DNA of 64,000 nucleotides from Liolophura sinensis (lineage: Eukaryota > Mollusca > Polyplacophora > Chitonida > Chitonidae): assembly GCF_032854445.1 (NCBI RefSeq), contig NC_088295.1, positions 28,257,385 through 28,321,384 of the forward strand, in the 5' to 3' direction. A program made the translations under genes and the position numbers. Shown piece after piece: positions 5,526-41,000 of this stretch. The notes under the pieces are model-generated. The model saw only the letters and a list, made by a program, of their open reading frames with translations, was not told the DNA's origin and made no database searches. Positions within the stretch are counted from its first letter, which is position 1. Each line of letters begins with the position of its first letter.

Positions 5526-7434
5526 CAGATCGGTATGTTCGTGAAAACTTAATGTTATCAGTCAAATTCGCGCCAAGCAGCAACCAAAGGTAGTGAGAGA
5601 AGTACACATTTATGTTTGTTTTTTCTCTTATTACATGATGCATGTAATGTTAAAGAGTTGCATATTAAATCTCTGAGTCTGAAATGAAACCATATTGGGA
5701 AATAAATTATGTTTAAAACAACTTAGTGTTATTATATTTATTATAACGCCTAAAAACTGAATTGATGTAGGCGTAAATGGACAAGAGGTCGGATTTCATC
5801 GGTTACTTGTGATCATTAGACAATTGTTACACTGTCGTCGATGCTCTAGTTTTACTCCCCATGAGGTCTTTTGAGTTCAACCAGGGCTTAAGAGACCATC
5901 TTAATCTCAGGTTCAACGAGGATGCATGTAATAAAGCCGAGTCCGAGGTGCTTTGTACGGCATTGCTTGGGCCTGTCATCTATATATGTATAGATGTCTA
6001 TATAGGATATAGTAAATATACTGAAAAAGAAGTATATATAAAAATTGCTATGTATCAGTTTCCAAATATCCATCAGCACTACGAGCGCTGTAAGACTACA
6101 TATGTAAACAAGACAACAAACCATGGACTTAACAGGGAGTATATCTTATGCTGTTCCACATTCGCGGAATACATATGGCTTTCTGAAAGGAATATATATT
6201 ACTTACGATCGTGCACGATGGTACACACACAGGCCTGTTTAATACTTCTCGAGATTATTTATGGTGTTGTGCCTCAGGCATGATGGTACATCTAAACAGG
6301 AGATGAACCGCCATGACAGCTCACCATAACATGTTCGCTGGGAAGGGGATGTATGCCAAAAGGGAAGGGTCGTCGGTTATCCAAATATTAGCTTTATCTG
6401 TACACCGTTATGAAGACGTAAGCCCAACAGAAAACAGATATCATGTGCAACGACACCGGCACTATGAAAGACGCTGAAATGGGAACAAGCATTTATCCTC
6501 AAGCATTACGTTCAGGAACTCTGTATGTAATATAACTTGAGGACAGACATGTGAACCTGCTTCTGATAACACCTGAACTTTGATGTTAGGTATGGTAACG
6601 TGCGCGATACTCGTGAAAATAACAGGATTATTAGTGATTTTGTTAAAAAAAAATGATGTAAGCATCCAAGGGAAGATTACTGAAAGCTACATCTGAAAAA
6701 AACATGTGCTTAGTTTTATAGTGAATTAAATGCAGTCAACTGCTTGAATTCCAAGGTTATGTGTCCATATGTGACCTTTTCGTGACTTGTCTGCTGAACT
6801 TCTCTTTGGAAGAAACTATGGCGAAGTTTGCTCGCTTGATTTGAGCTCATTATTTACATTTAATCAGATAAAAGGTACAGTTAGACTTTAAATGAGATTG
6901 TTTGTACATGTCCAGCAAATATGGCAGCCTCATTTCACCGTGATTGAAAACCTGTCTTCTGTTCCTATCCTCGTCCCCTCGCCCTCGGCCGCTTTCCGTG
7001 ACTTTCGGGTCGCGGGTGAGTGTCATCATCCGTCTTCCATAGTATGGCTTACTATTTGTAACACTTTGCGAGTATGATGGAACATAAACACCGCAACTAA
7101 TTTAATTTAATTCTTTATTTATTTTACTGAGGATGAGATTTGTTTTTTCCCTTAAAATATCATGCTTAAAAGATGAGCGGTGAATGTAAAAATGACATTG
7201 TAAGGAATAAACATTTTTATTATACACGATTGTGAACTACTAAATTTTGTAAACTTCCTACTTCTAAAATCACTAAAACATTTGAAAAACATCGCATTTA
7301 GACTTCTATAATCAGAGCTAGTCAAATTCTCTGAAATTTTAATTTCAGATTATGACCAATGATAAAATGACAAGAAAGTGTCGGCTCCTGTGATCCTGTA
7401 TCAGTTGATTGCCCCGGACTCTCGGCCAGCCAGG
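5526..7434. other. Upstream flank of the cadherin gene
   Basis: A 140-codon open frame at 5861-6283 has no recognisable domain. 5' UTR exons of the cadherin may lie here but cannot be placed by sequence alone. No TATA box with matching start context was identified. Confidence 0.4.
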
Positions 7435-10400: not shown

Positions 10401-13400
10401 AAGATTTATCCATATAGAAAATGTATTAGTGTAATTCATATTTTGCTGTCACCAAATGATTTATCGATATCGATACATGAAACCTATGAATGAATGAATC
10501 ATATCGATAAATAGTTATATCGATAAATAGCATTTTCTGTTAAGTTTCAAATGGAAACAACAGCTTTCTCTGCGTTTTAGAGAAAATTTCTGTATTTACA
10601 ATGGCCGAAGTAGCATAGTCAGCTAACCAGAAAGCAAGGCATTGACAACAGGGGTATCTCACCGAGGTTTGTGATTTAATGCAAAAGATCGTGTATTACG
10701 TATGACAGAAATACAGGTACCAGTATAATACCTGTAATTCATTTATCGATATCAATAATTCATTTATTGATATCGATCATTCATTTATCGATATCGATAA
10801 ATTCGACTATTTATATAGAGACATAGATTTTTCTAGTAGCGATGTCAGTAAATAAATTATCGATATCGTCAATTGATTTATCGATTGAGGTAAATCATTT
10901 TTGATAATTCTCGATAAAATTTTGGTTTCGTTCCTCATTGGCCTCGTTGGGCCCCAGTGAAAGAGGTAGATAGCTGGCCAGGTTCCTTTTACCAAGGCGG
11001 TCGCTGTGAGTTCAAGACCAGCTCATGCTGGCTTCCTCTTCGCCCGTATGTGCAACTTGCGGATGGTCGTGTGTTTCCCCGGGGCTTTGCATGCCGGGTT
11101 TCCTTCCCACTCACCATATTCCTGACCGCCGTCGTATAAATGAAAAATTCTCGAGTGCGATGTAAAACACCAATCAAATAAATACATTATGGTTTTCTTA
11201 GTCCAGCAGGAGAATTGTGGTTTATATTGTTTTTGAGTAGCAGGCAATTGTTAGATTTGACGTTTAATTTGCATCTGCATACCTGATAGCCGCCGTATAT
11301 ACAAGAAAAGTTTTCTTGGGCATAGCACAATTCCCATATAAAAAAATTACATACACATGTCTTGTCTTGTTCTCACAGACGGAGCGCATGACATGCAATT
11401 TCGATTGCAAGGTAAGCCCATTTTACTTTTCTTAACGGTAACTGGCATCAAGGACAACAATGCTTAACAACAATGCTTTTTCTTTGAAAGGACAGAAAAA
11501 ATGGGTAAAATATACGCCAGAAAACAAAGGTGCTGGTGTCTTTCAAAAATCTACCAGGTATAACATTCTCCGACTTCACAGAACTTGAAAGAAACGGTTC
11601 ATTCATTGAACACTACGAACAGACCAGTTATTGGGTTCGTATCAATGTATAACATAAACCACAGTACGAAATGATTTGTTTCCATGCTAACAGGCCACAT
11701 ATTTACCATATTTTAAAGGCCTTAAGCTACGAAAAATAATTTTGATAGCACCCAATTCACATACATGCAAAGGAAAATTTTGGGAGAGATCTTTCGAGTA
11801 TTGAGCAGGATTAAGGGTTGCTCTTAATGAAATTTACGGTTTTATACATGTGATGGTGACTTGTGTTTGTACAGGATGAGAGAGGACAGACTCTTAGTTA
11901 TCCTCTCCAGATATGGCTGGCAAAGATAAATGAGTACAGTCCTCTTTTTCACCCCGATGTGTACCATTTCCATGTTCCAGAGGTGAGTAGAATCCTCTCT
12001 TCTACCCCGATATGTATTATTTCCATGTTCCAGAGATGAGCAGAAACATGCTTTGAGAGCTACGAGTTTATAGACGATGAATCCCGTATCAGGTCATGGA
12101 CCATTTTCGACCGAGACGGAGAATTCTAAATCTCTAACAAAAGATAATATTGTGTAAAATTTAACAGACTTTGGTTTTCAGAGTGTTGCATTTATCGTTT
12201 ATTTCAGCTGTCTCCAAATGGATATGCTGTGAACAAAAATATCGCTTGGAATGTTACCGATAGGGACGTCGGCGACAAAGTCGCAAGCTATTCCTTTCAG
12301 GTAAGTGTACATTTCCGCATTTTCCACTCTTCCCACTGTTTAACTTTCTGTCGTGTGCACTACCTTCTTTTACCACTAGTCTAATAAAAGCTCAGTCACA
12401 CTTGAGCAATCTCTGCGATTCATCGCGATTTTTTCTATCGTGGTCAACCGATTTACTGTACTGAAACCCAAGAAACTGTTTGCAGTCACACATCGACTAA
12501 CCCATCGACTCTTGTAAAACTCCAATCCGCAATAGTCATGTGAATGGATGAAATTAAAGACATTCTGTGACAAAAGTGTGCTTACGATTAATGAAGGCCG
12601 TTTGCGATGTTCCTAAGTAGCTCGTATACGACAAAATCAGATCCAGTTAACATTGCCTGGTAGTCAGAGTTTATGTAGCTGGTCGCAGGTAGTTTCGTGC
12701 ATGCACAAAACCACCCGCGACCACTCCGATTGCCTCGCAATCGCTGCTGATGTCTTTAGATTCATCGAAATTCGTTAAAATCCTCCACAATCAATCTATG
12801 ATTTAGGAAGATATTTGCTCGCAGAACATAGTTTTAAATCGCGTCCTAAAGGCGCAAATTTTGGTGTTCACGTTTCCCCATGGGTGTATATGCTTCTTGG
12901 TCAGCAGGACGTATTATGCTAAGAATGTCTTATAATTGGAACAAGAATGTTACATCAAGAACTTATTGATTCTTTAACCAAAGCAGTAAATTAATAAATT
13001 AATTTATCATTGGTTAAATCCATGCAGTCAAATCGGATTTTTCCGCTGGCTAATTCATTAATCAATGGCCTATTTCAGTCAATAACTGACCAAGCCTTTT
13101 ATCTTTCTGATACTACGAGCGGGAAAATAGCTGTGAAGAAGGCGTTGGATTACGAGACTGGTCCAAAGAATTACACTGGAATTCTTTTGGTTTTCGTAAG
13201 TATTTTTGTGAACAAAGTCACACTTACCCTGTTTGACAACTCAAACGAGGTCGCCCACAGTTCAGATTTATTTGTCTACTGGTGTATAATATCGCGCATA
13301 AGAATACTTCATTAGACTGCGGCTTCACGTCAGGCGGTTTCGAAGGCGTCTGCTGGAGGGCGGTAGTTTCCTCTGGTTTCTACTAAGTAAATCTCATCAC

Positions 13401-16400
13401 CCTCATAAAAGTGAAATATTCTTAAGGGCGAGATAAATCATCAAGCGGTAAAATTAGATTTCCACCTGCTACAAACCTAGTGCACGGGCATCAGGTGTCA
13501 CAGAGCATTTCGTCAACATAAACTACACTAGTATCACCACGCTTATTGGCAACAAGTGCAAAAAGATAACAGGACAATCCTTCTAGACTGGTACAGTATT
13601 GGTCATTTATCCATTTATGTTGCTTGATTGGTATTTCACGTCGTTCTCAGAAATATTTCCCTAGTAAGAGGGTGTTTGGGTCTAGGATAAAGGAAACCTG
13701 ATGGCGCCAAAACCTCCGAACAACCGTTTCCAGTTGAAACAATAGCTAGATTGGCATACGTGACTTCATATGTCACTAATGGTGTGAACTGTAGTGCCTT
13801 AGAAGTTTCCTCCAGATTACTTCCGCGGGTTATGTGTGGCCATTATTATCTCAATTGGACGTACCCAATCCGTTATGTGTGGCAATATGGCAATTATCAC
13901 AATGTTAAGTGACCGTACCTTGCCGGTTATTTGTGACCATATGGCAATTACTAGTATCACAATCTCAATTGAACGTACTCTACCCGTTATGTGTGACCAA
14001 TTGGCAATTATCACAATGTTAAGTCACCGTACCTTACCGATTATTTGTGACCATATGGCAATTATCATATTCCCAATTGTACACATGTTATCGGCCATAT
14101 GGCAATTATCACAATGTTAAGTGGCCGTACCTTGCCGGTTATTTGTGACCATATGGCAATTACTAGTATCACAATCTCAATTGAACGTACTCTACCCATT
14201 ATGTGTGGCCAATTGGCAATTATCACAATGTTAAGTGACCTTACCTTACCGGTTATTTGTGACCATATGACAATTATTATATTCCCAATTGTACGTATGT
14301 TATCCGTTATGGGTGGCCATATGGCAATTTTTACAATTTTAAGTGACCGTACCTTACCGGTTATTTGTGACCATATGGCAATTATCATATTCCCAATTGT
14401 ACACATGTTATCCGTTATGTGTGGCCATATGGCTATTATCACAATTTTAAGTGACCGTGCCTTACCGGTTATTTGTGACCATATGACAAGTATCATATTC
14501 TCAATTGAAAGTATTCTATCCGTTATGTGTGACCATATGGCAATTATCATATTCTCAATGGGGCGTACTGCACCCGTTATATGTGACCATGTGACAATCC
14601 TCATATTCTATATGGCAAAGCTCAGCTGTTAAATGGGTTATTTGTGGCTATATGACAATTATCACTATGTCAAGTGACCATACTACACTGGTAGTGTGTG
14701 ATAATCTGTCAGTTATTACTCTGGCAAATTGGCGTATTTCATCAGTTATCTGTGACGATATGACAACTATTTTACAATCAATTGGCCGTACCTCACCGGT
14801 TATGTTTGACCATATGGCAACTACCACAAAGCCAATTGACCGTACCCCACGGGTTATGTTTGACCATATGGCAATTACCACACGGCAAATTGACCGTACC
14901 TCACCAGTTAGGTGTGATCATATGTCAGGTACCACCCGGCAACTTGACCGTGCATCACAGGTTATGTTTGACCATATGGCAATTCGCACACAGCAACTTG
15001 ACCGTACCTCACCAGTTATGTGTGATCATATGTCAGTTACCACACGGCAACTTAACCGTACCTCACCAGTTATGTGTGATCATATGGCAATTACCTCACG
15101 GCAAATTAGCCTTACCTCACCAGTTATGTGTGATCATATGTCAGTTACCACACGGCAACTTGACCATGCCTCACCGATTATGTTTGACTATACGGCAATT
15201 ACCACACGGCAAATTGACCGTACCTCATCAGCTATGTGTGATCATATGTCAGTTACCACAGTGCAACTTGACCGTACCTGACAAGTTACGTGTGATCATA
15301 TGTCAATTACCACACGGGGGGCCTCCGTGGCTCAGTTGGTTAGCGCGCTAGCGCAGCGTAATGACCCAGGAGTCTCTCACCAATGCGGTCGATGTGAGTT
15401 CAAGTCCAGCTCATGCTGGCTTTCTCTCCGGCCGTATGTGGGAAGGTCCATCAGCTACCTGCGGATGGTCGTGGGTTTCCCTCGGGTTCTGCCCGGTTTC
15501 CACCCACCATAATGCTGGCCGCCGTCGTATAAGTGAAATATTCTTGAGTACGGCGTAAAACACCAATCAAAAAAAAAAAATTACCACACGGCAACTTAAC
15601 CGTACCTCACCAGTTATGTGTGATCATATGGCAACTACCAAACGGCAAATTGGCCTTACCTCACCAGTTATGTGTGATCATATGTCAATTACCACACGGC
15701 AACTTAACCGTACCTCACCAGTTATGTGTGACCATATGACAATTACCACACAGCAAATTGACCGTAACTCATCATTTATGTGTGATCATATGTCAGTTAC
15801 CACACGGCATCTTGACCGCACCTCACCTGTAATGTTTGACCATATGGCAATTGCCACACAGCAAATTGACCGTAACTCATCAGTTACGTGTGATCATATG
15901 TCAATTACCTCACGGCAACTTGACCGTGCCTCACTGATTATGTTTGACCATATGGCAATTACCACACAGCTAGTGTTTCATATTATTGTGTAGAGAACCG
16001 GAGTACACCGGTCTTAATCGAACGTTAACTTGTACAAATGGCACAATGAGTGTCCAAGAAGGTTTAAGACTGGTACTGAGCCCTCGCTTCATTTGTCAGC
16101 TGATAAGAGTCACTTATGTCTTTGCACTGAGCCACAAGTCGATCCCCTTTTCAATGTACTTGAGAGCTGTCTGTTATCTGTATAGTTCACCGTGGGGATG
16201 ACATCTTCTAAATCTTCTATTGTTAATGTCTCTTTTGTTTACATATACATCACCTGTACAAATTTTCAGGATGACGACACAAACTTGAGGCGTACTGGAA
16301 CCGCCACTGTTTTCATATCAGTGGAGGACGTTGATGATGAGAACCCTGGTTTTAGGTCAGATCATTACAGCCTACAGATCCCGGAGGAGGTAAGATCACA

Positions 16401-19400
16401 TATATACATTTAGCCTGTCCGGGCATTAGCTAAGATCATTACAGCCTACAGATTCTGAAGGAGGTATTATCACACATATACATTCAGCCTGTCCGGGCAG
16501 TAGCTCAAATCATTACAGCCTACAGATACGGGGGAGGCTAAGTCACGCATATACATACAGGTTGTTAGGGCATTAGCTAAGATCATTACAGACTACAACC
16601 CCCGGAGGAAGGAATATACTCCTGATGCTACCTTATTTGATGAAGAGTTCAACACATGTTATCGAATCAGCAAGATATGTTTGCGCGACAAACAGTGCCC
16701 ATTATGGCATATTGAGTTCAATACGGGTAAATTTGTATCTAAGAAATGATTTGTATTCACCATTTTCAATTTTCTTTCCAGAATTCCAGTTGGACGAACG
16801 TCCCGTTATTCACCAGTCCTAAGCTAGAGGCCTTTGACCAAGATCTGGGTGTAAACAGCGACATTTTGTACAGACTCGTACCCGGTGAGATATAGCGCCC
16901 GTGTGGCTGTGTTGGACTTTGGAAATTGTATAACAAAGTGTACTGTGCATGCAGTTAAATATGTATTGGCTTTCAGTTTCTATTTTGGGGTTGGAATAAT
17001 CGTAATTTTTATCTAAGGGCTACTCAGACAAATTTTCAGGCTACCTTGATTGTTAAGCTTTTTATTTATGGCATGTTTTGTATAAAATAAGAATTTCTCT
17101 GTTTGTTTCCGATATAATTTGGAATACCGGTGTCGAAAATTATTCCATCATTTCTTAAATTTCCATCATTTCCAAGACACATTTTAATAATCTAGGAGCG
17201 CTTCATTAATAAATTCAGCAGTCTGAGATTAGTGAGTTAATAATCTAACGATTTTCCCTCGCCATTTGCGTAATCTCTGTCTGAGACGGTTTTTGTGCCA
17301 CTTTCCCCGTCACCAGGTCCACCTGAACCACAGGCGCTCCACGAGCTGTATCACAATTTCAATGTGGACAAGGACACTGGGGCTATCACGATGGCAAACA
17401 AGCTAGACAGAGAGCAGATCAGAAAGGATGGGATTACTCTACCTTTCTCTTTGTATATCGAGGTAATATATACCGTTACCGCTGACCAACAATTAGCCTG
17501 TAGCATAATGAGGCCACTTCCTAAAGACGCGCATGCGATGTGAAACAGAGTATCGCTTCTTCGATGAATATGGCGAAGAGCAACTCGTGCGTTATATACA
17601 TTGTTCTGAAGTTTTTGTCACAGATATTGTTGTTGGAGATTTTTTTTACCCAGCAATGCCAAACCATTCCAAAAGCAGAGGAAGGAAATGGAAGCAGAAC
17701 ATGCCACGTTGCTTGAGGTTCCATTACAGCAAGAAGTTACCTTAGAGCTAATCTTCACGGACAGCTCCGTTTGACTTGAAGTTGTCTAACAATGCGCCTT
17801 TAAAATTCATATTGGATAATTACCTTCTCTTATCGACCTTTATTGTGCGTTTCTGTCTACGTCAGCAACGTTACAGTGGAGAATTATGAGGACTGGTCCC
17901 TTAAAGTATGGTGGGGATCCGGATAGGGGGCTCACGCTAGATACAGGAACTTTTTAAACGATTTACAGGCTAGATAGAATTAATGCAGAGTATTGTCCAT
18001 GTGTCTGTATAGTGGAGGAATTTCTACATTTAGCTATGGCGGAAGTTTGTGCTGTCTTGGAAAGCATATATACGGCTAGAATTAAAAATGTAATTATTTT
18101 CTGCATTTTATAGGCGTATGAGAACAGCACGATTCAGCGCTCCAACATAACAGTTGTCAGCATCACTGTGACAGACTTGGACGACAATCGGCCTGTGTTC
18201 TCACATTCCTTGTATACGACGGAAATTGTAGAACAGCCTACTTTCGGCAGCACCGTGGCCTTCGTGACGGCCACGGATAGTGACGAGGTAAATGCCTATT
18301 TGGCTATCTCATTTTCTTACATGACAACAATCAGTGAACTAATCTATTGTGGTCAAAAAGACTGTATTCTTGATTAGAATTTATCCCCACTGCCATCGAT
18401 GATGAAATTCTAAGAACCAAACAGTCAAATTATTTTATTTTATTTTTCAGAAAGTTTCTGCTGAAATTAACTGTTGTTTTGGTCGTAGCAAAATCGGGGC
18501 CGGTACAGGCTGTGCATTGAGAAATCTTAATTTCAACCTTTACATAAAGAATTTTTCAATTATGCAATGGCGGTTAGCTTTTTGGTTGGAGAAAACCATT
18601 GGCATTTGGCAAGCTACTGACAAACTTTCCCGCATGTGAAACTCTGGTATTCCACTTCATCTTATTTAGGCATACACCATACTGGTGCAAGTTCTCCAAC
18701 AAATGTTAGACTGTTGAAACGGTCAAACGAAGGTCATCGGCTGCTTATTGGCACAAAGGACTCATCAGTTAGAGCGCGGGGAAAATGTGCTAATTTCGAT
18801 TTACGTCACAATTTGTTGGAATGATTTAAAAACTAGGGTGTCAAACATCTTCGCTGAGAAACTTTTTCAGTGACCATTATGCCTTCTGTTCTGCAAATTA
18901 TGGGTAGAAACTCAGATATCTTGCTATCTGTGACATATTTCCGCTTCATCTTTATCTAATTACGCTTAACCTGGTGGTGTAAGTGTCCATGGTTATCAAA
19001 TCTGGATGGTGCTTTTATGAACAGTTGCAATCAAGCGCGATTCACATAGCTATATATTTGTACTACTACGGGCTACGAGTTTGAAATTTGAGTACGAATA
19101 TCTGACTTGACGGTTACATCCACAAATTCCCTTCCAAAGGCAGGATTTGAACCCTAGTATGTCATAGCGATTGGAAGGTAAGCAACATAACCACTGGGCC
19201 ATAGCCCGCTTCATACTAAATTGGACATTTTATTCCAGTTACACGCAGTATACCATATATATTAGAACCATCATGACGAATTAACTAGCACAATACTGTT
19301 TGAATTGCAGGGCGTAAATTCTTATTTCACTTACAAGCTTCTAAACGGCACTGAATATTTTGGGGTGACGGGCAACGAGACAGGACCAGGAATTATTGTA

Positions 19401-22400
19401 GTGAAGAATGGCACAACGCTGGACAGGGAAACGAACCCAACTTATTGGATCAAAGTGAGTTTCTTACTTTTCGACGGAAACCAGTGGTGCAATTTACGTA
19501 CATTTTTGGAATATTTTAAGATTTAAGCAGTCAGTTGTAGTTCTGAAGAATCTTGAACGATACTAACTTTTACTTTGTCTACTTCAAAGTCATAATTTAT
19601 AACATACCCTAAAATTGTGCTTGTACGCGTTGCAGAAGAAAGGTAAATACAAAGGAATCGATGTGACGATTGTATTGCTTAGAATTTTTGACCATAGTTG
19701 AAACATTCTGAAGGAATTCTATTTACATTTCTTAAATATTCTTATAAATCGGCCAAAGATATTCTAGCTTTTTAGTGTATATTTTTGTTCTTCGTTAGAT
19801 TGGAACAAACACAGACACGGACCAAAAGCACACGACTATTTTACAAATATCACTACAAGACGTCAACGACAATGTTCCTATCTTTGATGAAAAGGAGTAC
19901 CATTTTGAAGTCCGTAACAGAACAGTAAGTACATCATGCTTTCTTTGTTATAAAAGTTTAGAATGAAATTCAAGGAAGAATAAACTATTATAGTTTTACA
20001 ACATTATTTCACACGTTTTTCTGATCAATCCCAAACTCGGCATGTATCATATAGATTTTTTTAAACGTTAATTTTCATTGTTTGTTTGTTGTTGTTGTTG
20101 TACTGCATGGTATGAAGGCCTATTACTGCATGTTTGGTGTATCATTTTTCAACATTGCAGGCTTCGGGAGGCTCGTCTATGGTTTTAGTTGGTGATGTTC
20201 TGGGTACAGTATCAGTAAGTACCACTGTACTAGCCTATATTTATTTATTTATTTGGTTGGTGTTTTGTGTCATACTCAAGAATATTTCACTTATACGACG
20301 GCGGCCAGCATTATGGTGGGAGGAAAAGGGGCAGGGCCCGGGAAAAACCCTCGACCATCCGCAGGTAGATGACAGACCTTCCACGTACGGTCGTATTAGC
20401 CTATATAGTTATTCTGTCCACTTGATCATACCTTGCATAGATAGCCCAATCAATGGCGGTGGCTGGTGAATGGCGAAGAATCAGTAATTTAAGGCATTAT
20501 GCTTCACTCGGACATCCTTTTGTTGGACAAGATTTACGTATTGGAATCCACAATACTTCCGTATGCTAATTTTATTCAATTGAAGCACATTATTTTTTAT
20601 ATGCAGGCATCCGATAAAGACGATGGAGAAAATGGCAGAGTTTCCTATTCATTTGGGAGTCCCGGGTAAATCTGTGTATGCCTCAGCTAGCATGTCAATA
20701 CGTATATTTATATAGTTGCCAATAAAGGCTCTTTTTATATGGACTTTTCGACTCTTTGTCACTGTTTTTAATCTGTACTACAAGAATTCTGCATTAACAA
20801 CAAAGAGTGATTAATATACATCAATATTAGAAATGTAAAAATTTTTAGAATTTGGTTCTGTATTCAGATTAAAAATATATAGTTAAGCTAAGATAGTTTA
20901 CTGTTTACCTTTAGAATCGATGGTTATCTGAGCATTGACCCAACGTCCGGAAAAATAACGGTATCTCGTACGCCTTTACCCTTGGAAGGGGACATTGCTT
21001 CATTGGAGTTCTATGTCAAGGCGACAGACCACGGCAACCCTCGGTTGGAATCGGTGACGTTAGTCAAGGTTGGGTCTTCTAACATAAAATACTCAGTGTA
21101 ATATTTTGAATTATTTTGAGTAAAGTGAGCAGTACTTTTGTGTATACAGATTTACTTATTTATTCACGCGGAAAGTGCTAATAGAAGGCTATTTTCTTTC
21201 AATAATCTGCAATGTTGGATTTATTTGTTTGTTTGACTGGTGTTGTACGCCGTACTCCAGAAAATTTCATCTACGCTGGCGGCAGGCATTAAGGTGGGAG
21301 GCAACCAAATAAAACCCATGTTGATCAGTCCGGCATGAAGTTTCTTGAATGTGAAAGTTGTTCTTCATTGTTCGCAAGACCCAATGTTGTGGTTATACAT
21401 TTTCTGGAGATTTATCCGTTTATTTGGTAATCAACCATGGCATAAACTTTTCGAAGGACATAGACGGGGAGTTTTTATATGATGTTTTGACAATAACTAC
21501 ATCATAAAAGAAAACTGCAGCAAATCATGTACATTATATGAGGAAATTGTAGGCAATATCTGAACACTTCTGTGCGAATGTCTCTTTCAGGTAATACAAT
21601 ACAATGACGACATCAGTTATTTCCTGTACGCTGATGTGTCCGCCGATCTTCTGAGGCGTGATAAGGTCCCCTTACAAGGGTACGTGATGATTTCTTAGCA
21701 ATGCACAAGACTTCGCTTAACACAGACAACTTGAGATTTGGGCGTGTGGATTACTTCCTTGAACGTCATTTTTGATATTCCTGTAGGGAACTAGGTTTTT
21801 TCGGTTTCCAGGGATTGTAGAAGAGGTGACATTTTTCTAAATGACTGCATGCAGAATGAGTACATTTTCTTGCCCCGTTTTTTTTTGGGGGGGGGGAGAT
21901 TAGTGCTTAAAACCGTATTCAAAAATTTTAGTTTTTAACGTGAGATTTAACCTGACATTTAGTCGAAATTCAGGTACATTAGCGCGCCATTTAGCCCTGC
22001 GAGATTTAGAGGAATGTCGCATCCAGAACGCGACATTCCTCTAAACCTTGATTATCCGAATATCGCCCTTCCTGAGTTGAGTTGAAAGTTAAAATTGAAT
22101 AATGAGATCAATTCTGACGAGATTGAGAGTATATAGGGGAGATTCTGACGAGATCCCGGTAAGGAACGAAAAAGCAATATTTATTCAGGGCGGCGAGATA
22201 CAGCTAACATCGCGAGATTCGGACGCAGACTCAAGATTTAAACGAGATTCTCTACTGAATATCGTTGCAGCCTATTTGTAATTTCTTCAGAATATCGCGT
22301 TGGCCTCCTAATCCGGACTGAATCTCGACATATCGCTGTTCCTAGTTTGGAGAAATGTGTGGGAGGGAGCATTGCCGCCCCTGGCTTCCATGCATCCAGT

Positions 22401-25400
22401 GCAAAAGGGTAGCGTTTCTGCAAAACAAATATATAATGTTGATTCTGCGAAAAGAAACGTGTAATTTCGCCTTTCCTAGTTTACACGACCCTCACCAATT
22501 ACTTTTGTATCATATGTCTCAATATCATTGCCTTATGACAGATATGCTACTTCTTTCTTGTAGCGATGTGTCATTATTAACTTCTTTGCCTTACTTTCCA
22601 TTATGTCTGTTGATAGATATGTCATTGTTGCCTTCGTGGAATGGAGATATCATTTCCGACTTCTTTTAGCATGTGTGCCACCAAAAACCTTGTTATGACA
22701 TGTATGTCTGCAACAGATCTTCCCTCACATAGAAATGGTGCGTCCCATTGTTTTGTTAACATATTAGCGTTATATATATGTACAGTTTCTTCTGTTGTTT
22801 TCTTATCACAAAGGAAGATAAAATTGACACAGTTTACTCATGATTTTGTTTATTTTGTCAGAAATCTGAGTGCAATACTGGGTGAGGACGTGACAATAGC
22901 TAATGTGATACCGGACAACAAAGGTGGTTTGGATTTATCCAGGTGAGACGCGTTTCTTTATGGAAAAAAGTTAGCTACCTAGCTCCGAAAAAAGACATTA
23001 TTTTCACTTTTTGGTATTCAATGTTTCAGCATTTCCAATATCGTACATTTCCAGCGCGTAAAGGCAAAATGACATAAAGTTAATTTTGAAAATATTAAAT
23101 AACCAAAACGAAGACTTGGAGCAAACGTTTCTCGGACATGTCAGAGTATTTCTGTCGGCAACAAGTGTGTGGATATTGCGGATATGTAAATACTACCATC
23201 TGTAATGTTTTCCATTCAAGCATGAGGATTTGTACGTAATCACCTATGGCGTACTTTTCAGATCACAGATTCAACTCACGGCCACCCATTCCAACGGTAC
23301 CCCAGTGACAAGAGATCAGCTCAGAAGGTATACCAGCCTATTCTTGCACACAAAAGAATCCATCGAGTCCGCGGGTCGATAGAATTTTGCAACAAGTCCT
23401 AAAAACTATTCTTGTTCATGAATATTAAGCGAAATGTAACAGGAAGGCGTGGACTGTGGCTCACTGGCATGGTGTGAAACTGCAACCACGAAGGCACACG
23501 GTCTTGGGACAGGAAAATTTGTATAGATTGAACTGTTAATTGCTCATTCGTTTAGGACCACTCGTCTCCTACCTATAAGGTTTATGGTCTGTGGGAAATT
23601 GTGTCAGTAATAGGAAGTTCGATTCCAGTACCCTGAAAACTACGAGTATATTACAAACAAATAAGTAAATATAGTTTGAATGTTTTGATAGGATTCTCAT
23701 TCATTTCATCATATCACACTTAACATTCTGAGATGAAGAAACAACTTGGATATACATGTATTATGCCATTGTAACAGAATTCATTTTACTCCATATTCTT
23801 AGCCTGGCTAATCGTCATCACGCAGAAATCCAAGCCTTGTTCGATGCCTACAAGCAGACCAATCCATCAGGGGAGAATTCCGAAGAGGGGCTGGGTCCAG
23901 CCGTTATCGCACTCATTGTCATTGTCTGTGTTGTCTTCATCACGGCGGTCATTGTCTTATTGGGATACTGCCACATGGCGCGGAAGTGAGTTTTATATTT
24001 CATCGGCCATTTCTCTTTAGTTACCAGACGTCGGATTGCTTGTGTCACGGATGGTTAGCAATAATGCAGCAGGCAGCTTCTTTGATTGTAATTGTATTCT
24101 AATGGAGACCGTTCTGTTAAAAAAAATGCCTACACAAAAGGAAAGTGCATCTGCAACGACTATAAAGTTTCTAGGGCTTTTATATACCAAGGTCGGTGTA
24201 AGCCGATTTATTTCCTTTCCTTTTTTAGGAAAGGTACGTCAGATTGTTTGTTTTATTACTGCGATCTGTTCTCTTTTTTCTGTCCAGAATGAAGAAGTTG
24301 GCGCGCTTGGATCAGAACATGACTCTGCGACCGACAATTTATGAAACTCAAGAGTTGAAATTAGACGTTGAGGGCGAAACCTCTGATTATGACAAGTCCG
24401 AGTCCTTGGAAGATGAAGACGTGGCAGAAAACGATGTGGAAGAGGGCATTTCTGAACTCCGATGGAATCCCGCTTACACTGGGGGGGATAATGTGGTCAA
24501 TTTTTCGGAAGTAACCGAGCTGAAGCAGTACTTCACATACCCGCCAGTTAGGAGTTCGGAGGATACTGAAGCTGATGTCAGTGATACGCACAAAAGCCAG
24601 GGTGACGCTGACACGGTTGTTAGTCAGGAAAAAGCTACTGACGGCTCCGTTACAGACGTCGAGGACACAGAGAACGTGTTAAGTGTGCCTCTACATGGGG
24701 CAGCAACGGATGAGGTTTCAACACTCACTGAATTAACAACCGTACCCGAACCAGATATGGACAGTGATGAGTCAAGAGCTTCTTCTCCTGTGTCTGAGAC
24801 AGTGCCGTTTGAAAGGGAAGACGGTCCTGATGGCCAAGAAGAGGTTTCTTCGCAATCACAGTCTACACCCCCCGAATCACCCAAACCGCCACGAACCGAA
24901 CAATTAGTGCCACCTAGAGAGACTGACGGGCGTGCTTCATCCGACAGTCTTATTCATCTCGCGCCACCCATTCCAGTAACTAACTCGGAGCCTCAGTTGC
25001 CACTACAAAGCACGGGTTCCCTTGAGCACTACAACCCTACAGAGGATTACGATATGAACACGGAGACAGGCAGCGTACCCGACACAGATAGTAATGAAGT
25101 AGCACGGGGTGCAGGCCCAGAACCTGATCCGGATTATAACCACCTGGTGCCATTACCTGAGCCCAAACCAGACTATGCTAAGGTATCCTTCTCTGACACA
25201 ACCATTGCCATTGATACTGACAACAAGGTCGAAGTTATCAAACAGATCCACGACGAAGAAGAATCGGTTAGCGAGGAAACATCCACACAAGCAGACGACG
25301 ACGATGTTGCAAAAGATGACTTACCGGCAGTACCAGACGCTACTAAACAACCGCCTTTAACTGGCAATAGCAATCAAGTTGTTAATGACGAGATGCCATC

Positions 25401-25581
25401 TACCACTGACCGTAATTCGGATTCAAAGAGCAATCTTCTTCCACCGGCGGGTCCATCCGAATCAAAACCGGAAGTAACCCTTGGCTTCGCTAACGCTGCG
25501 TTTTTACAGGAGTTGAAGGAAAAAGCCAAAGAAATCAAGAGTAAAAGCTTTTATTTTTCTGAACTGTTAACACATTTTTAG
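7435..25581 (+). CDS. Cadherin-family single-pass membrane protein, 22 coding exons
   Basis: Calcium-dependent adhesion or signalling receptor at the cell surface. Exons: 7435-7486, 7955-8026, 8654-8808, 11379-11411, 11521-11646, 11875-11982, 12208-12300, 13079-13195, 16270-16389, 16782-16884, 17317-17462, 18114-18287, 19311-19454, 19799-19924, 20161-20214, 20607-20665, 20915-21068, 21591-21679, 22862-22942, 23262-23327, 23803-23985, 24288-25581. All junctions are GT-AG with matching phases and sum to 3549 nt, 1182 residues plus stop. Order: signal peptide; atypical EC1 (about 26-171); EC2 ending DVDDENP (272-278); EC3 ending DLDDNRP (396-402); EC4 ending DVNDNVP (502-508); EC5 to about 617; membrane-proximal segment 618-722; transmembrane helix about 724-746; tail 752-1182. 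LDYE, LDRE and DxD calcium motifs (TDRD, FDQD, TDSD, SDKD) are visible. The EC1-EC2 linker is degenerate (INEYSPLF). The short exon 11379-11411 and the acceptor at 11521 are the least certain parts. The exact cadherin subfamily is not assigned. Confidence 0.9.
7696..7746. repeat. TATG microsatellite
   Basis: About eleven near-perfect TATG units in the first cadherin intron. Confidence 0.95.
8314..8600 (+). mobile_element. tRNA-derived SINE, full length, degraded
   Basis: Starts GGGCCTCCGTG, keeps the B box (GAGTTCAAATCC at about 8391) and ends in the family tail ACCAATCAAATTAAAAAA. Strongly mutated, so an old copy. Lies in cadherin intron 2, just before exon 3. Confidence 0.8.
9680..10920. 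repeat. ATCGATAAAT-rich palindromic tract
   Basis: The self-complementary word ATCGAT, mostly as ATCGATAAAT or its partner ATTTATCGAT, occurs more than twenty times, often as paired ATTTATCGATATCGATAAAT palindromes, at irregular spacing. Lies in cadherin intron 3 (8809-11378). Confidence 0.85.
10940..11190 (+). mobile_element. tRNA-derived SINE, degraded head
   Basis: Body GCTCATGCTGGCTTCCTCTT through GGTCGTGTGTTTCCCCGGGG to the tail AAAACACCAATCAAATAAAT is clear; the tRNA-like head is diverged. Lies just upstream of cadherin exon 4. Confidence 0.8.
11940..12045 (+). repeat. 53-bp tandem duplication of the exon 6 / intron 6 junction
   Basis: The last 43 bp of cadherin exon 6 plus the start of its intron (11940-11992) are copied once at 11993-12045. 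The second copy keeps TTTCCATGTTCCAGAG but its donor GT has become AT (GATGAG), so it should not splice. Confidence 0.88.
12680..12723. repeat. 44-bp imperfect palindrome
   Basis: TGGTCGC at the left pairs with GCGACCA at the right, with further pairing inward to the centre GTGCATGCAC. In cadherin intron 7. Confidence 0.75.
13310..13715. mobile_element. Two degraded SINE pieces in cadherin intron 8
   Basis: 13310-13450 (plus) keeps GTGAAATATTCTTAAG and ATCA near its 3' end. 13618-13715 (minus) keeps TTGATTGGTATTTCACGTCG and AGAAATATTTC. Both match the SINE body but are much diverged. Confidence 0.5.
13836..15975. repeat. 54-bp satellite, about 34 units, in cadherin intron 8
   Basis: Two related subtypes. 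The left part has ATGGCAATTATCACAATGTT, AAGTGACCGTACCTTGCCGG, TTATTTGTGACCAT; the right part, from about 14650, has ATGGCAATTACCACACGGCA, AATTGACCGTACCTCACCAG, TTATGTGTGATCAT. Some left units carry a 6-bp insertion. In the right part two variants tend to alternate, suggesting a 108-bp higher-order unit. Because 54 is a multiple of three, long open frames arise by chance. Interrupted by a SINE at 15318-15579. Confidence 0.95.
15318..15579 (+). mobile_element. tRNA-derived SINE, intact, inserted in the 54-bp satellite
   Basis: Head GGGCCTCCGTGGCTCAGTTG includes an A box (TGGCTCAGTTGG) and a B box (GAGTTCAAGTCC near 15398). Body runs to GTACGGCGTAAAACACCAAT and an A-rich tail. A 12-bp target-site duplication ATTACCACACGG flanks it at 15306-15317 and 15580-15591. 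The best-preserved copy in the window. Confidence 0.95.
16270..16389 (+). CDS. Cadherin exon 9: EC2-EC3 linker with DVDDENP
   Basis: Encodes the end of EC2 (TATVFISVEDVDDENPGF) and the first strand of EC3 (HYSLQIPEE). The linker is a DxNDN-type calcium site with a D-to-E substitution at its fifth position. The exon is phase 0 at both ends. Its last 30 bp and donor are repeated three more times directly downstream (16434-16620). Confidence 0.9.
16360..16620 (+). repeat. 74-bp tandem repeat of the exon 9 / intron 9 junction, four copies
   Basis: GATCATTACAGCCTACAG at 16360 (inside exon 9) recurs at 16434, 16508 (first base changed) and 16581. Only the first has the used donor GAG|GTAAGA. The second keeps a weaker GG|GTATTA-like sequence; the third (GAGGCTAAG) and fourth (GAGGAAGG) have lost GT. 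Confidence 0.9.
18114..18287 (+). CDS. Cadherin exon 12: EC3-EC4 linker with DLDDNRP
   Basis: Encodes VVSITVTDLDDNRPVF followed by HSLYTTEIVEQ and FVTATDSDE, which are the end of EC3, the first strands of EC4 and the EC4 DxD calcium motif. The exon is phase 0 at both ends with acceptor TTTTATAG and donor GTAAAT. Confidence 0.92.
19110..19210 (-). mobile_element. Second tRNA-like SINE or tRNA pseudogene
   Basis: On the minus strand GGGCTATGGCCCAGTGGTTA holds an A box (TGGCCCAGTGG) and AGGGTTCAAATCCTGCC a B box. The acceptor arms do not pair, so this is not a functional tRNA. It differs from the main SINE head. Confidence 0.6.
19799..19924 (+). CDS. Cadherin exon 14: canonical DVNDNVP linker
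   Basis: Encodes ILQISLQDVNDNVPIF followed by EKEYHFEVRN, the only fully canonical DxNDNxP linker in the protein, joining EC4 to EC5. Phase 0 at both ends. Confidence 0.93.
20238..20396 (-). mobile_element. tRNA-derived SINE, 5' truncated
   Basis: Plus-strand text TTTATTTGGTTGGTGTTTTG, ATATTTCACTTATACGACGG, CGGCCAGCATTATGGTGGGA through to ACCTTCCACGTACGG; the tRNA-like head is missing. In cadherin intron 15. Confidence 0.88.
21218..21310 (-). mobile_element. SINE 3' fragment
   Basis: TTTGACTGGTGTTGTACGCC followed by GTACTCCAGAAAATTTCATC and a diverged GGCGGCAGGCATTAAGGTGG. In cadherin intron 17. Confidence 0.75.
21591..23327 (+). CDS. Cadherin exons 18-20: membrane-proximal extracellular segment
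   Basis: Three small exons (21591-21679, 22862-22942, 23262-23327) encode residues 613-690 between EC5 and the membrane. The residues YFLYADVSADLLRRD, NLSAILGEDVTIANV and SQIQLTATHSNGTPVTRDQL read as alternating strands and helices, without calcium motifs. Cadherin-23, protocadherin-15 and insect cadherins carry a ferredoxin-like membrane-adjacent domain at this place. Membership of that class is inferred from position and predicted pattern only. Confidence 0.6.
21960..22350. repeat. CGAGAT-rich segment with a perfect 16-bp hairpin
   Basis: TTTAGAGGAATGTCGC (22005-22020) and its exact reverse complement (22030-22045) are separated by 9 bp. The following 300 bp repeats GCGAGAT and CGAGATT words. 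In cadherin intron 18; no coding potential seen. Confidence 0.7.
23803..23985 (+). CDS. Cadherin exon 21: transmembrane helix
   Basis: After a hydrophilic stalk (QTNPSGENSEEGLGP) comes an uninterrupted hydrophobic run at residues 724-746 (AVIALIVIVCVVFITAVIV and on), then the basic stop-transfer HMARKMKK across the junction with exon 22. This sets the topology as type I: extracellular N-terminus, cytoplasmic C-terminus. Confidence 0.92.
24288..25581 (+). CDS. Cadherin exon 22: long acidic cytoplasmic tail
   Basis: A single 1294-nt terminal exon encodes residues 752-1182. The segment is low-complexity and rich in D, E, S, T and P, so probably disordered. It holds an NPxY motif (NPAY, residues 812-815, nt 24466-24477). 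No catenin-binding sequence was recognised, so this is unlikely to be a classical cadherin. The C-terminus is ELLTHF, which fits a class I PDZ ligand (T at -2, F at 0). A possible internal donor (AGA|GTAAAA near 25541) could give another end; none of the downstream continuations looked convincing. Confidence 0.88.
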
Positions 25582-30135: not shown

Positions 30136-30169
30136 TAGATGAATACAGCTGACGCTGTAAAAGAAATAG

Positions 30170-30435
30170 ATTTATTTATTTATTTGATTGGTGTTTTACG
30201 CCGTACTCAAGAATATTTCACTTATACGACGGCGGCCAGCATTATGGTGGGAGGAAACCGGGCAGAGCCCGGGGAAACCCACGACCATCTGGAGGTTGAT
30301 GCAAGACCTTCCCACGTACGGCCATAGAGGAAGCCAGCATGAGCTGGACTTGAACTCACAGCGGCCGCATTGGTGAGAGGCCCCTGGGTCATTACGCTGC
30401 CCTAGCGCGCTAACCAACTGAGCCACGGAGGCCCC
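30170..30435 (-). mobile_element. tRNA-derived SINE, full length, minus strand
   Basis: Complete from the TTTA-rich tail to the tRNA-like head (CTAACCAACTGAGCCACGGA gives the A box on the minus strand). Flanked by AAAAGAAATAG (30159-30169) and AAAAGAACTAG (30436-30446), a target-site duplication with one mismatch. Confidence 0.95.
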
Positions 30436-38000: not shown

Positions 38001-41000
38001 CACAAGTGTCTGTGATATATATGAAAGTAGAAGCATTTCTTTTTTTCTCCTCGGCAGATGGAAAGCTATAAAATAAACGTATACATGTAGGTTATTTTGG
38101 GTGTAGTGGTTCATTTGTATTCACATTGTATTCTCATTGTATTCTCAACAGTGTCATGATTTTGTTCACCAAAAGACAACACAGCTTTCACAAACTGCCA
38201 CTTAGAAATGAAAATTACTGTTATTCAGTGTACATGCTTTGTCATTCACTCACATACTTGTAAAACTGCTGGATAAAACTGGTACAAAGATATGCGAGAA
38301 ACGCCATCCAACAATTTAGAAGATTTATGGTAGGTTCATCATGGAAACAAGCTAATCATTTCCCTTCTAATTATTTCCCACTCAGATCTAATTAACAGCT
38401 GACCCACTGAAAGGTTTATTTTCAGCTGCAGCATCCTTGCCAAAAATTTGCAAGTCCTCTAACAATGAGCGCAAAAAAAAGGTGAACTTGAAGGACTTTT
38501 GTTGTCTGTAAAGCTAGGGTTAAAAATGGCAAAAGCCTACATACAAATGCAGATTGTGTACACATGTTTAGATTTACATACATGTGTCTCTTATCATAGG
38601 GGTGCGATAGCAAGCAAATGTCAGTATAAATAGCTCCATTGTTTGTCCCACTGTTTTGTCTGCCTAATATATTTAAGCATATGTTTATCACTCCTGAAGA
38701 ATTTTGTGGTAGTAGTTAATATATAAACGTATAAAGTTGTAGGCTTGGTAAAGGACTTGTTTATGGGAACTGGTAGAAGATTACTCTCTTTCTCCCAGGT
38801 GTTGTAGAAATGATATAACCTTGAGTTCTACGAGAAGCACATGGCACTTAAATATTTATTTATTCATTTGATTGGTGTTTTACACAGTACTCAAGAATAT
38901 TTCACTTATGACAGCGGCCAGCATTATGGTGGGAGGAAACCAACAGCCGCACCAAGTAAATATTTGATTTATTTATTTGATTGGTGTTTTACGCCGTACT
39001 CAAGAATATTTCACTTATACGACGGCAGCCAGCATGATGGTGGGTGGAAACCGAGCAGAGCCCGGGGGAAACCCACGACCATCCGCTGGCAGCTTTGCTG
39101 GCAGGTTGCTGGCAGACCTTCCCACGTACGACCGGAGAGGAACCAAGTAAAAATAAACACATGTATTGCAACAGGTAGATACGTGTGTGTATATGTACAC
39201 ACCTGTTATCAGATAATTATAAAATAGGTACACATACATGACGTTACATGTATATACAGGTATATGCAGGTAAATTTTGGCAGTGTATGTGTTGCATGGG
39301 TAAGTTCTAACCATTGAATTGCATCCATAGACACATTAACAGTGTTATTCAGGGTGGGGTAGCTTCTGTAGGAATGTCATCTATGTAAATGTGCTCGGGC
39401 TGATGTCACTTGCATGTGGGGTACAGACTACCCCCAGGGTCACAATGTGTTACCAAGCCTGACCCCACCCAGCAGACTGTAACTCCAGCCTGGTGGCTAT
39501 ATGTAGGTGCATGTATCATGCTCCAGTATGTGTACATGCATTAGTGCTTCACACTCTATTGATCCCTAGTTGCATGTTAATCACACAAGTCTGACCCAGT
39601 TTTTCTGTGGATGTTTTATCTTTGTTGGACATGTGTTAGCACCGGGTCAGTTTGTCTCCTGTTTATTACACTATATATGTATATGTAGATGTACATGCTG
39701 TACTGTTTACTTCAGAGCTGGATTTAATAAAACGATATGCTCATATAAGGATTGTTGAGCAATGGTGACAGTAATTCTCTTAAGAAACACATAATACACA
39801 CAGTGTGTAAAAAAAAAAAAATTAAAATTTAAGGGGGGGGGGGTGAGGTGGGGGAAATGTCTTACATCTGCCATGTTATCCAGCGTCACTGTGTAAAACT
39901 GCTTGCATGTTTTTAGACATCTGCTCCTATCTTTGTATTTAGAATTAAATTTTTGGTTCACAGCAATATAGTTTATTTTTCTCCTTTCATTCATCCATCT
40001 AATAAACGACATGTTGATGTCTTTCATTTCCTGCAGACCCGAGAAATTCCTTTCAAAATGACGAAATGTTTTCATTAAAATGAGAAGATCTTCTTGCTAT
40101 TCCCTTTTCATTATTTAAAGAAAATTATCCTCTACATTTTGGTGTAACTTCATAGGCTTTAACTCTTTGTTAAAAACACTTGCACATGTATATAGAATAA
40201 AATGTTTGCAGTTGTCACAATTATTATTAAATGACCCATATTGTGGCCCATATTCCTAAAGCTGGTATAATGTTATTCTGCCACATAAATGCAGACTATT
40301 TTAATAAAGGCACTGTGTGAACTTTAATTAACAGGCAAAAGCTGCTGGAAAGAAGTTAAAAAAGGTCGCCATAACTGTTTCTCCAAAAGGAATTAAAGTT
40401 GTGGATTTAATTACAAAGGAAGTCAGTGTTGAAGTATCTATATACAGGTAAGTTGTGACTTAAAATACCAGGATATTTTGTTAAATAATGTCTAGTTGAT
40501 CTCTTAAAATATATGGAATTCCTTGCCTTTATTCAGTATATTTGTCTGACCGATTCCATGTTGACCAAAAAAAAAAAGTGTGTTTCCATAAGTGAATTTT
40601 GCTTGAATGTTGATATAGGTGTTGGTGTAGCTAATTCTAGTGTGAACTGGTGGTTTTACAAATGTACATTACTGGCTTTATTATTGTTTCTTGCATTTAA
40701 TTGATGTACACAGGTATTGTTCATGAATTTTATTTTTAGATTGCAGATAAATCTGTCAAATAGTCACAAGTTTGGCATGTGAGTCTTACAACAGACTTTT
40801 TGCTTGTTTTCAGAATTTCTTTTTGCACAGCTGACCGAAACCATGATAAAGTATTTGCATTTATAGCGAGAAACACAATCAATGAGACAATGGAGTGTCA
40901 TGCCTATCTGTGCGCCAAAGCCAAAATTGTGAGTTGTTGTAAAAGTTATTTTTATCTGGATTCATCATGTGTGTTAATTCCATTGCTAATATATTGGATT

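Follow-up and report, generated by a model that had tools for sequence, protein, structure and literature searches.

Which copy of a tandemly repeated splice site is used, and what do the remaining copies do to the intron in which they lie? This question is raised by a stretch of 64,000 nucleotides from the chiton Liolophura sinensis (contig NC_088295.1, positions 28,257,385 to 28,321,384, forward strand; hereafter the window), in which a segment reaching from the final part of a cadherin exon through its 5' splice site (donor) into the following intron is present several times in tandem. The genome measures 609 Mb, and its assembly GCA_032854445.1 has 632 scaffolds (PMC11068029); the species name was initially given as Liolophura japonica and has since been changed to L. 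sinensis (PMC12441733). Based on the analyses described below, the array is very probably an old and decayed "mirage", i.e., a minisatellite lying across an exon-intron boundary, that is spliced at its first donor.

Structure of the Array at the Cadherin Exon End

Tandem Repeats Finder (TRF) reported an array at 16352-16597 with period 74, 3.3 copies (3.6 if the partial one is counted) and a score of 307, and a direct-repeat search recovered a 45-nt core four times at spacings of 74, 74 and 73 nt. In its full extent, the array covers 266 bp (16352-16617) and consists of three full copies of the 74-bp unit followed by a partial copy of 45 nt (Table 1). Furthermore, self-identity at offset 74 amounts to 0.59, compared with a mean of 0.26 for the other offsets between 30 and 120. 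The preliminary description of this locus had counted four tandem copies of 74 bp; the repeat itself was recovered by all three approaches, and the fourth copy proved to be partial. Moreover, the exonic portion of the unit, which had been given as 30 bp, has to be corrected to 38 nt, since the array starts at 16352. The unit is thus of minisatellite length (period 74) and spans the boundary, with the real junction lying in the end unit (38 nt of exon, the donor and 36 nt of intron).

Table 1. Exons, repeat copies and splice signals in the cadherin region of the window. Positions count from the first letter of the window; a slash marks the exon end.
Feature	Positions	Strand	Characteristics
Earlier exon	11875-11982	+	DERGQTLS...DVYHFHVPE; donor GAG/GTGAGT; cadherin-like by eye
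Second donor-spanning array	11930-12045	+	Period 53, 2.2 copies; downstream donor GAG/ATGAGC at 12036, GT lost
Cadherin exon (coding, 120 nt, phase 0-0)	16270-16389	+	DDDTNLRR...SLQIPEE; acceptor AG at 16268-16269; identified by translation and by PDB cadherin matches that span the junction
Copy 1 of the 74-bp unit	16352-16425	+	Final 38 nt of the exon (16352-16389) and first 36 nt of the intron
Donor of copy 1	16390-16395	+	GAG/GTAAGA; 10.1 bits, a score reached by 0.5% of window GTs; taken as live
In-frame TAG on extension of the exon beyond the donor	16411-16413	+	Seven codons read first; 22 nt into the extension
Copy 2	16426-16499	+	Donor position 16464, GAG/GTATTA
Copy 3, 73 nt	16500-16572	+	Donor position 16537, GAG/GCTAAG, GT lost
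Copy 4, partial, ~45 nt	16573-16617	+	Donor position 16608, GAG/GAAGGA, GT lost; ends just beyond the donor position
Next cadherin exon	16782-16884	+	NSSWTNVPLF...LYRLVP; donor CCG/GTGAGA; identified by sequence, translation and PDB matches

Pairwise identities between the full copies were 65/74 (copies 1 and 2), 56/73 (1 and 3) and 56/73 (2 and 3), and those involving the partial copy were 36/45, 35/45 and 30/44 for its comparison with copies 1, 2 and 3, respectively. The resulting range of 68-88%, determined on one haplotype, suggests that no recent turnover has taken place in the array.

An assembly or haplotype artefact was considered as the source of the copies, since the chiton assembly has a heterozygosity of 1.24% (PMC11068029) and the lancelet mirage BflGb6 was mis-assembled in a genome draft (PMC3087553). 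However, the HiFi reads, with a mean length of 8,347 bp at 14x (PMC11068029), extend far beyond the 266-bp array, which makes mis-assembly unlikely, and the copies are too divergent to represent duplicated reads. Moreover, a DNA search of the genome with positions 16300-16700, which skips very common words, returned a single place, namely the locus itself. The artefact was rejected on read length and copy divergence and is considered most improbable.

Further tandem repeats were observed in the surroundings. Large minisatellites with units of 54, 108 and 212 bp (13848-15970) take up a large part of the sequence preceding the exon that starts at 16270, and TRF arrays account for 11% of the window.

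Donor Strength and the Second Copy

Only the first donor of the array looks usable from its sequence. The site in copy 2 scores 2.4 bits, a value equalled by 18% of the 3,929 GTs on the plus strand of the window, and is exceeded by CGG/GTAAAT at 16727, which lies in the non-repeated portion of this intron (6.6 bits). In copies 1 to 4, the predicted energy of pairing with U1 was -9.6, -5.9, -6.9 and -5.2 kcal/mol, respectively. Competing sites would be expected to include two or more donors of similar strength; in the array, 10.1 bits in copy 1 are opposed by 2.4 bits in copy 2, and copies 3 and 4 are devoid of GT. The earlier proposal of one live donor followed by decayed copies is therefore in agreement with the donor states, which are strong in copy 1, weak in copy 2 and without GT in copies 3 and 4.

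The same description had suggested that copy 2 could serve as an alternative donor, the use of which would add about 74 bases and shift the reading frame. The length of the extension, 74 nt, was reproduced, but the in-frame TAG is encountered first, so that the extension would truncate the protein before any frameshift takes effect. Such a stop is reminiscent of poison extensions, and copy 2 retains its GT preceded by GAG; both features would suit a model in which the site is used to produce a truncated isoform prone to nonsense-mediated decay that tunes cadherin dose. This model is very unlikely given the low score of the site in comparison with both the window GTs and position 16727. Furthermore, lancelet mirages with duplicated sites reportedly do not give rise to aberrant mRNA (PMC3087553, PMC3902484). 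A usable second donor at copy 2 was rejected because the site is too weak.

Exon Junction and Probable Growth of the Intron

The exon end at the first donor is supported by protein comparison. For all five PDB cadherin sequences shown, the top-scoring domain alignment crosses the junction PEE/NSSW between the two exons without a gap; gaps at the junction occur in a few weaker PDB domain alignments. Joined to the following exon, the two exons matched the Pfam Cadherin family at 1.8e-9, with the last junction entered approximately, and the 74-residue join of the two exons alone returned no Pfam family. Based on the gapless best alignments and the Pfam match, the first donor likely represents the exon end.

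The intron between the two exons is 392 nt long, of which copies 2-4 contribute 192 nt and the remainder about 200 nt. Since the 74-bp unit contains AG/GT, and since potato and lancelet offer precedents for intron birth by duplication, the tandem duplication itself could have created the intron in the manner of a Rogers-type AGGT duplication. Such an origin would derive both splice sites from the duplicated segment; the acceptor TTTCTTTCCAG/AATTCC at 16781/16782, however, falls outside the array. Moreover, by eye, two of seven other cadherin exons that were fetched possess a consensus-like donor at the corresponding place. These two (L010, LSE/GTAAGA; L013, VEE/GTAATT) carry it in phase 0, within one codon of the window junction, and are free of TRF arrays. 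An array-derived intron was rejected because of the position of the acceptor and the donors of these two exons, and this origin is scarcely credible. Most of the 69 cadherin protein matches in the genome cross the junction position without an intron. The donor found at the same place in the two array-free exons and the acceptor outside the array indicate that the array probably enlarged a pre-existing intron, and the sequence comparison thus suggests that the intron is probably older than the array.

The proposed course of events starts with a segment made up of an exon end, the adjoining donor and the initial 36 nt of intron, which would have been tandemly duplicated several times in the cadherin gene, probably by slippage or unequal exchange. 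The outcome would be a short minisatellite in which the first unit provides the exon and the working donor and the later units are intronic. Splicing would take the strong first donor, and copies 2-4 would leave with the intron; these copies may have drifted neutrally, their donors now being weak or gone. The net result would be growth of the intron from about 200 to 392 nt.

Three points weigh against this interpretation. Use of the first donor at 16390 is predicted from sequence and protein comparison; donor and acceptor scores were obtained with general position weights that were not trained on this species; and the partial copy 4 requires an additional step, namely loss or divergence of its intronic half.

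Further Donor-Spanning Arrays in the Chiton Genome

The array at the cadherin exon is not a single case. A second donor-spanning array, which differs in its unit sequence, lies at the end of the earlier exon listed in Table 1; this exon probably belongs to the same cadherin gene, and its 36 residues returned no Pfam family. Furthermore, downstream of the cadherin exon L009, the tail and donor of that exon recur as copies of ~41 bp.

Exons with protein matches were then sampled by family, and an array was counted as crossing a junction when TRF reported a period of at least 10 and a score of at least 50 and the array extended 8 nt or more into the exon and 25 nt or more into the intron. Junctions were called from position weights on the genomic sequence alone. 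The first sample included 47 of 50 chaperonin matches, 36 of 81 myosin head matches and five cadherin exons, i.e., 88 matches in 17 gene regions, with 67 callable donors and 71 callable acceptors. The nine chaperonin and six myosin regions were selected without regard to repeats; the two cadherin regions were added once the L009 array had been noticed in one of them. Arrays crossed 8 of the 67 donors (in 6 of 17 regions) versus 1 of the 71 acceptors, and 7/63 donors versus 1/70 acceptors when the cadherin regions were removed (p = 0.027). The acceptor case, in a myosin region (MYO_C2), takes in just 9 nt of exon. TRF coverage in this sample was 12% at -15 to +50 of donors and 18% overall; the intron background amounted to 14-19% from +75 to +700 nt and to 9% at +1000, and coverage on the intron side of acceptors was 2.8% within 30 nt. 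It is not claimed that donors attract arrays, because coverage at donors (12%) does not exceed the intron background.

A second sample drew on kinesin (51 of 132 matches) and SNF2 (19 of 58 matches) and was restricted to stop-free matches with an open frame of at most 160 aa. Here, arrays crossed 2/66 donors and 1/63 acceptors, which does not represent a donor bias (p = 1). Coverage was 1.6-4.8% within 30 nt of acceptors and 3.0% near donors, and acceptors were no lower beyond 5 nt. Since arrays often create long open frames or stops within matches, this filter is biased against arrays; only one of the eight matches behind the donor arrays of the first sample would pass it. Among kinesin exons excluded by the filter (the first fifteen, with matches of up to 300 nt), arrays crossed 1/15 donors and 0/15 acceptors. 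Pooled post hoc, the counts were 11/148 donors versus 2/149 acceptors (p = 0.011), or 10/144 versus 2/148 excluding the cadherin regions (p = 0.019); some genes contribute several of these donors, and the two arrays of the window are not included.

Altogether, donor-spanning arrays were found in chaperonin, myosin, kinesin and cadherin exons and at one weaker SNF2-family match. For the array L095, the match is weak (E 4.1e-5) and the donor lies 39 nt past it. Splice-site arrays are thus a recurrent class in the chiton genome. A preference for donors over acceptors is suggestive and no stronger than that, because the second, filtered sample did not reproduce it. The share of donors affected may lie between a few and about twelve percent, a frequency for which a precise value needs annotation. 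Arrays extending up to or across the 3' splice site were also seen in L008 (reverse strand, 112-343) and L043 (sense, 1-429), the latter, with 23 nt of exon, being the clearer acceptor-spanning case.

Fate of the Downstream Copies

The fate of downstream copies was evaluated for 13 arrays, 11 from the samples and two from the window, with 75 alignable downstream copies. GT was scored as kept in 66 of the 75 copies versus 65.1 expected from identity in the rest of the unit; the count has to be corrected to 65/75, as copy 3 of the cadherin array reads GC and a gapped alignment had made it look like GT. Donor identity minus rest-of-unit identity per array gave no significant difference (Wilcoxon p = 0.34). 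General selection purging downstream donors was rejected, since GT was lost no faster than the remainder of the unit. Hence, the "decay" of donors need not imply selection. First donors scored higher than the mean of their downstream counterparts (p = 0.0017), which is expected anyway because the functional site had been assigned to the first position.

Many downstream donors are intact. Among 74 scorable sites, 45 reached at least 7 bits, and nine of the 13 arrays contain a downstream donor that scores as high as the first one. Several arrays hold strong identical donors 31-124 nt apart, and at the young end of the range, identical downstream donors number six in CCT_C8 6827, seven in MYO_C12 574 and four in L095. 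The arrays MYO_C3 13863, CCT_C1a 5363 and L119 likewise retain intact donors downstream. The cadherin array, with its live donor and decaying copies, represents the old end of this range, the young end being characterized by identical donors in a row. In the chaperonin locus L021 (CCT_C8, sense 6784-7244), the exon end is followed by six downstream copies with identical CAG/GTGTGT donors. Reading through from the exon frame, a stop is met within 69 nt in 11 of the 13 arrays; CCT_C8 6827, with a 66-bp unit in frame, and CAD_C13a show no stop over three units. As the CCT_C8 array is open and in frame over the three units read, use of its downstream donors could add repeats of 22 residues.

For the cadherin array, the copies could also be imagined as a splicing ladder, in which the AG/GT units would work as dual-specific sites, as recursive sites or as the borders of a micro-exon. 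A candidate for the latter is found at 16452-16463 (12 nt, ILKE, in frame), preceded by an AG that scores 1.0 as an acceptor. Furthermore, AG/GT is present at the first junction in 11 of the 13 arrays, a count made at array-bearing donors, and in human genes AGGT sites within tandem repeats can function as donor and acceptor alike (PMC10809524). On the other hand, no acceptor in copies 2-4 scores above 1.0, compared with 4.3 for the acceptor of the intron itself, and GT is absent from copies 3 and 4; a ladder is almost vanishingly improbable. Splicing at the first donor, with copies 2-4 as intronic relics, is the explanation retained for the cadherin array.

Comparison with Known Boundary-Spanning Repeats

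Mirages were described for the lancelet genes Adh3, BflGb6 and BflGb9, the latter two encoding globins, where either boundary can be duplicated and regular splicing is undisturbed (PMC3087553), and lancelet troponin C mirages are named in PMC3902484. Within the literature searched, the term was met for lancelet genes only. Like the chiton array, lancelet mirages are minisatellite-like tandem duplications over an exon-intron boundary, with units of 10-160 bp and some copies retaining splice signals. The chiton array differs in its mollusc host, in copies that are 68-88% identical and in later donors that are weak or lost. Moreover, the lancelet mirages affect both boundaries and are backed by reverse transcription PCR and haplotype evidence, whereas the chiton array is known from its sequence alone. 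In lancelet PGBD5, imperfect tandem repeats of 60 and 108 bp likewise lie over 5' or 3' splice sites (PMC3902484); gene and phylum are different, and accurate mRNA splicing is reported to be undisturbed there, the chiton case being read from the genome.

Intron gain by tandem duplication shares the boundary-crossing duplication, with a new intron arising there and an existing intron seemingly grown here. Dual-specific sites in tandem-repeat genes such as UBC resemble the chiton array in that each unit bears AG/GT; UBC-type repeats are coding and stochastically spliced (PMC10809524), whereas the chiton copies are read as intronic. For molluscs, boundary-spanning arrays were not found in the open-licence literature searched, three of the listings covering the best 10-15 of 57, 184 and 227 papers, which is not proof of absence; a search aimed at molluscs returned no paper, and the two mollusc papers PMC7931591 and PMC12005716, checked by term, describe no such arrays in the parts covered.

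Other Features of the Window and of Cadherin Loci

Downstream of the array, a 450-aa open frame (24229-25578) follows a transmembrane-like segment near 23900 and matched no Pfam family; it probably encodes the cytoplasmic tail of the window cadherin. Elsewhere in the genome (G000, C8:22.8-24.2 Mb), numerous long open frames that match cadherins are closely packed in the manner of a clustered protocadherin expansion. In addition, similar open frames resembling CFTPYSRIFHLYDGGQHYGGRK recur by eye on the plus strand of the window at 20234-20369, 21237-21309, 30139-30373 and 38814-39224, and probably represent an interspersed repeat family.

Significance for Intron Growth and Splice-Site Choice

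Taken by itself, the cadherin array is a modest relic and ordinary; it points to a wider pattern. We consider it possible, albeit doubtful, that a few to about twelve percent of chiton introns start with a donor-spanning minisatellite, often with several near-identical intact donors, among which the spliceosome reliably picks the first or removes the units stepwise. The 5' site would then be open to such arrays and the 3' site largely closed, and mirages would constitute a persistent route by which mollusc introns lengthen as well as a natural ladder of identical sites. To our knowledge, the choice among identical 5' splice sites has been studied mostly with engineered constructs; this chiton genome, with published RNA-seq from five tissues, would supply natural cases. 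If it is true that donors tolerate arrays and acceptors do not, this would bear on how introns grow.

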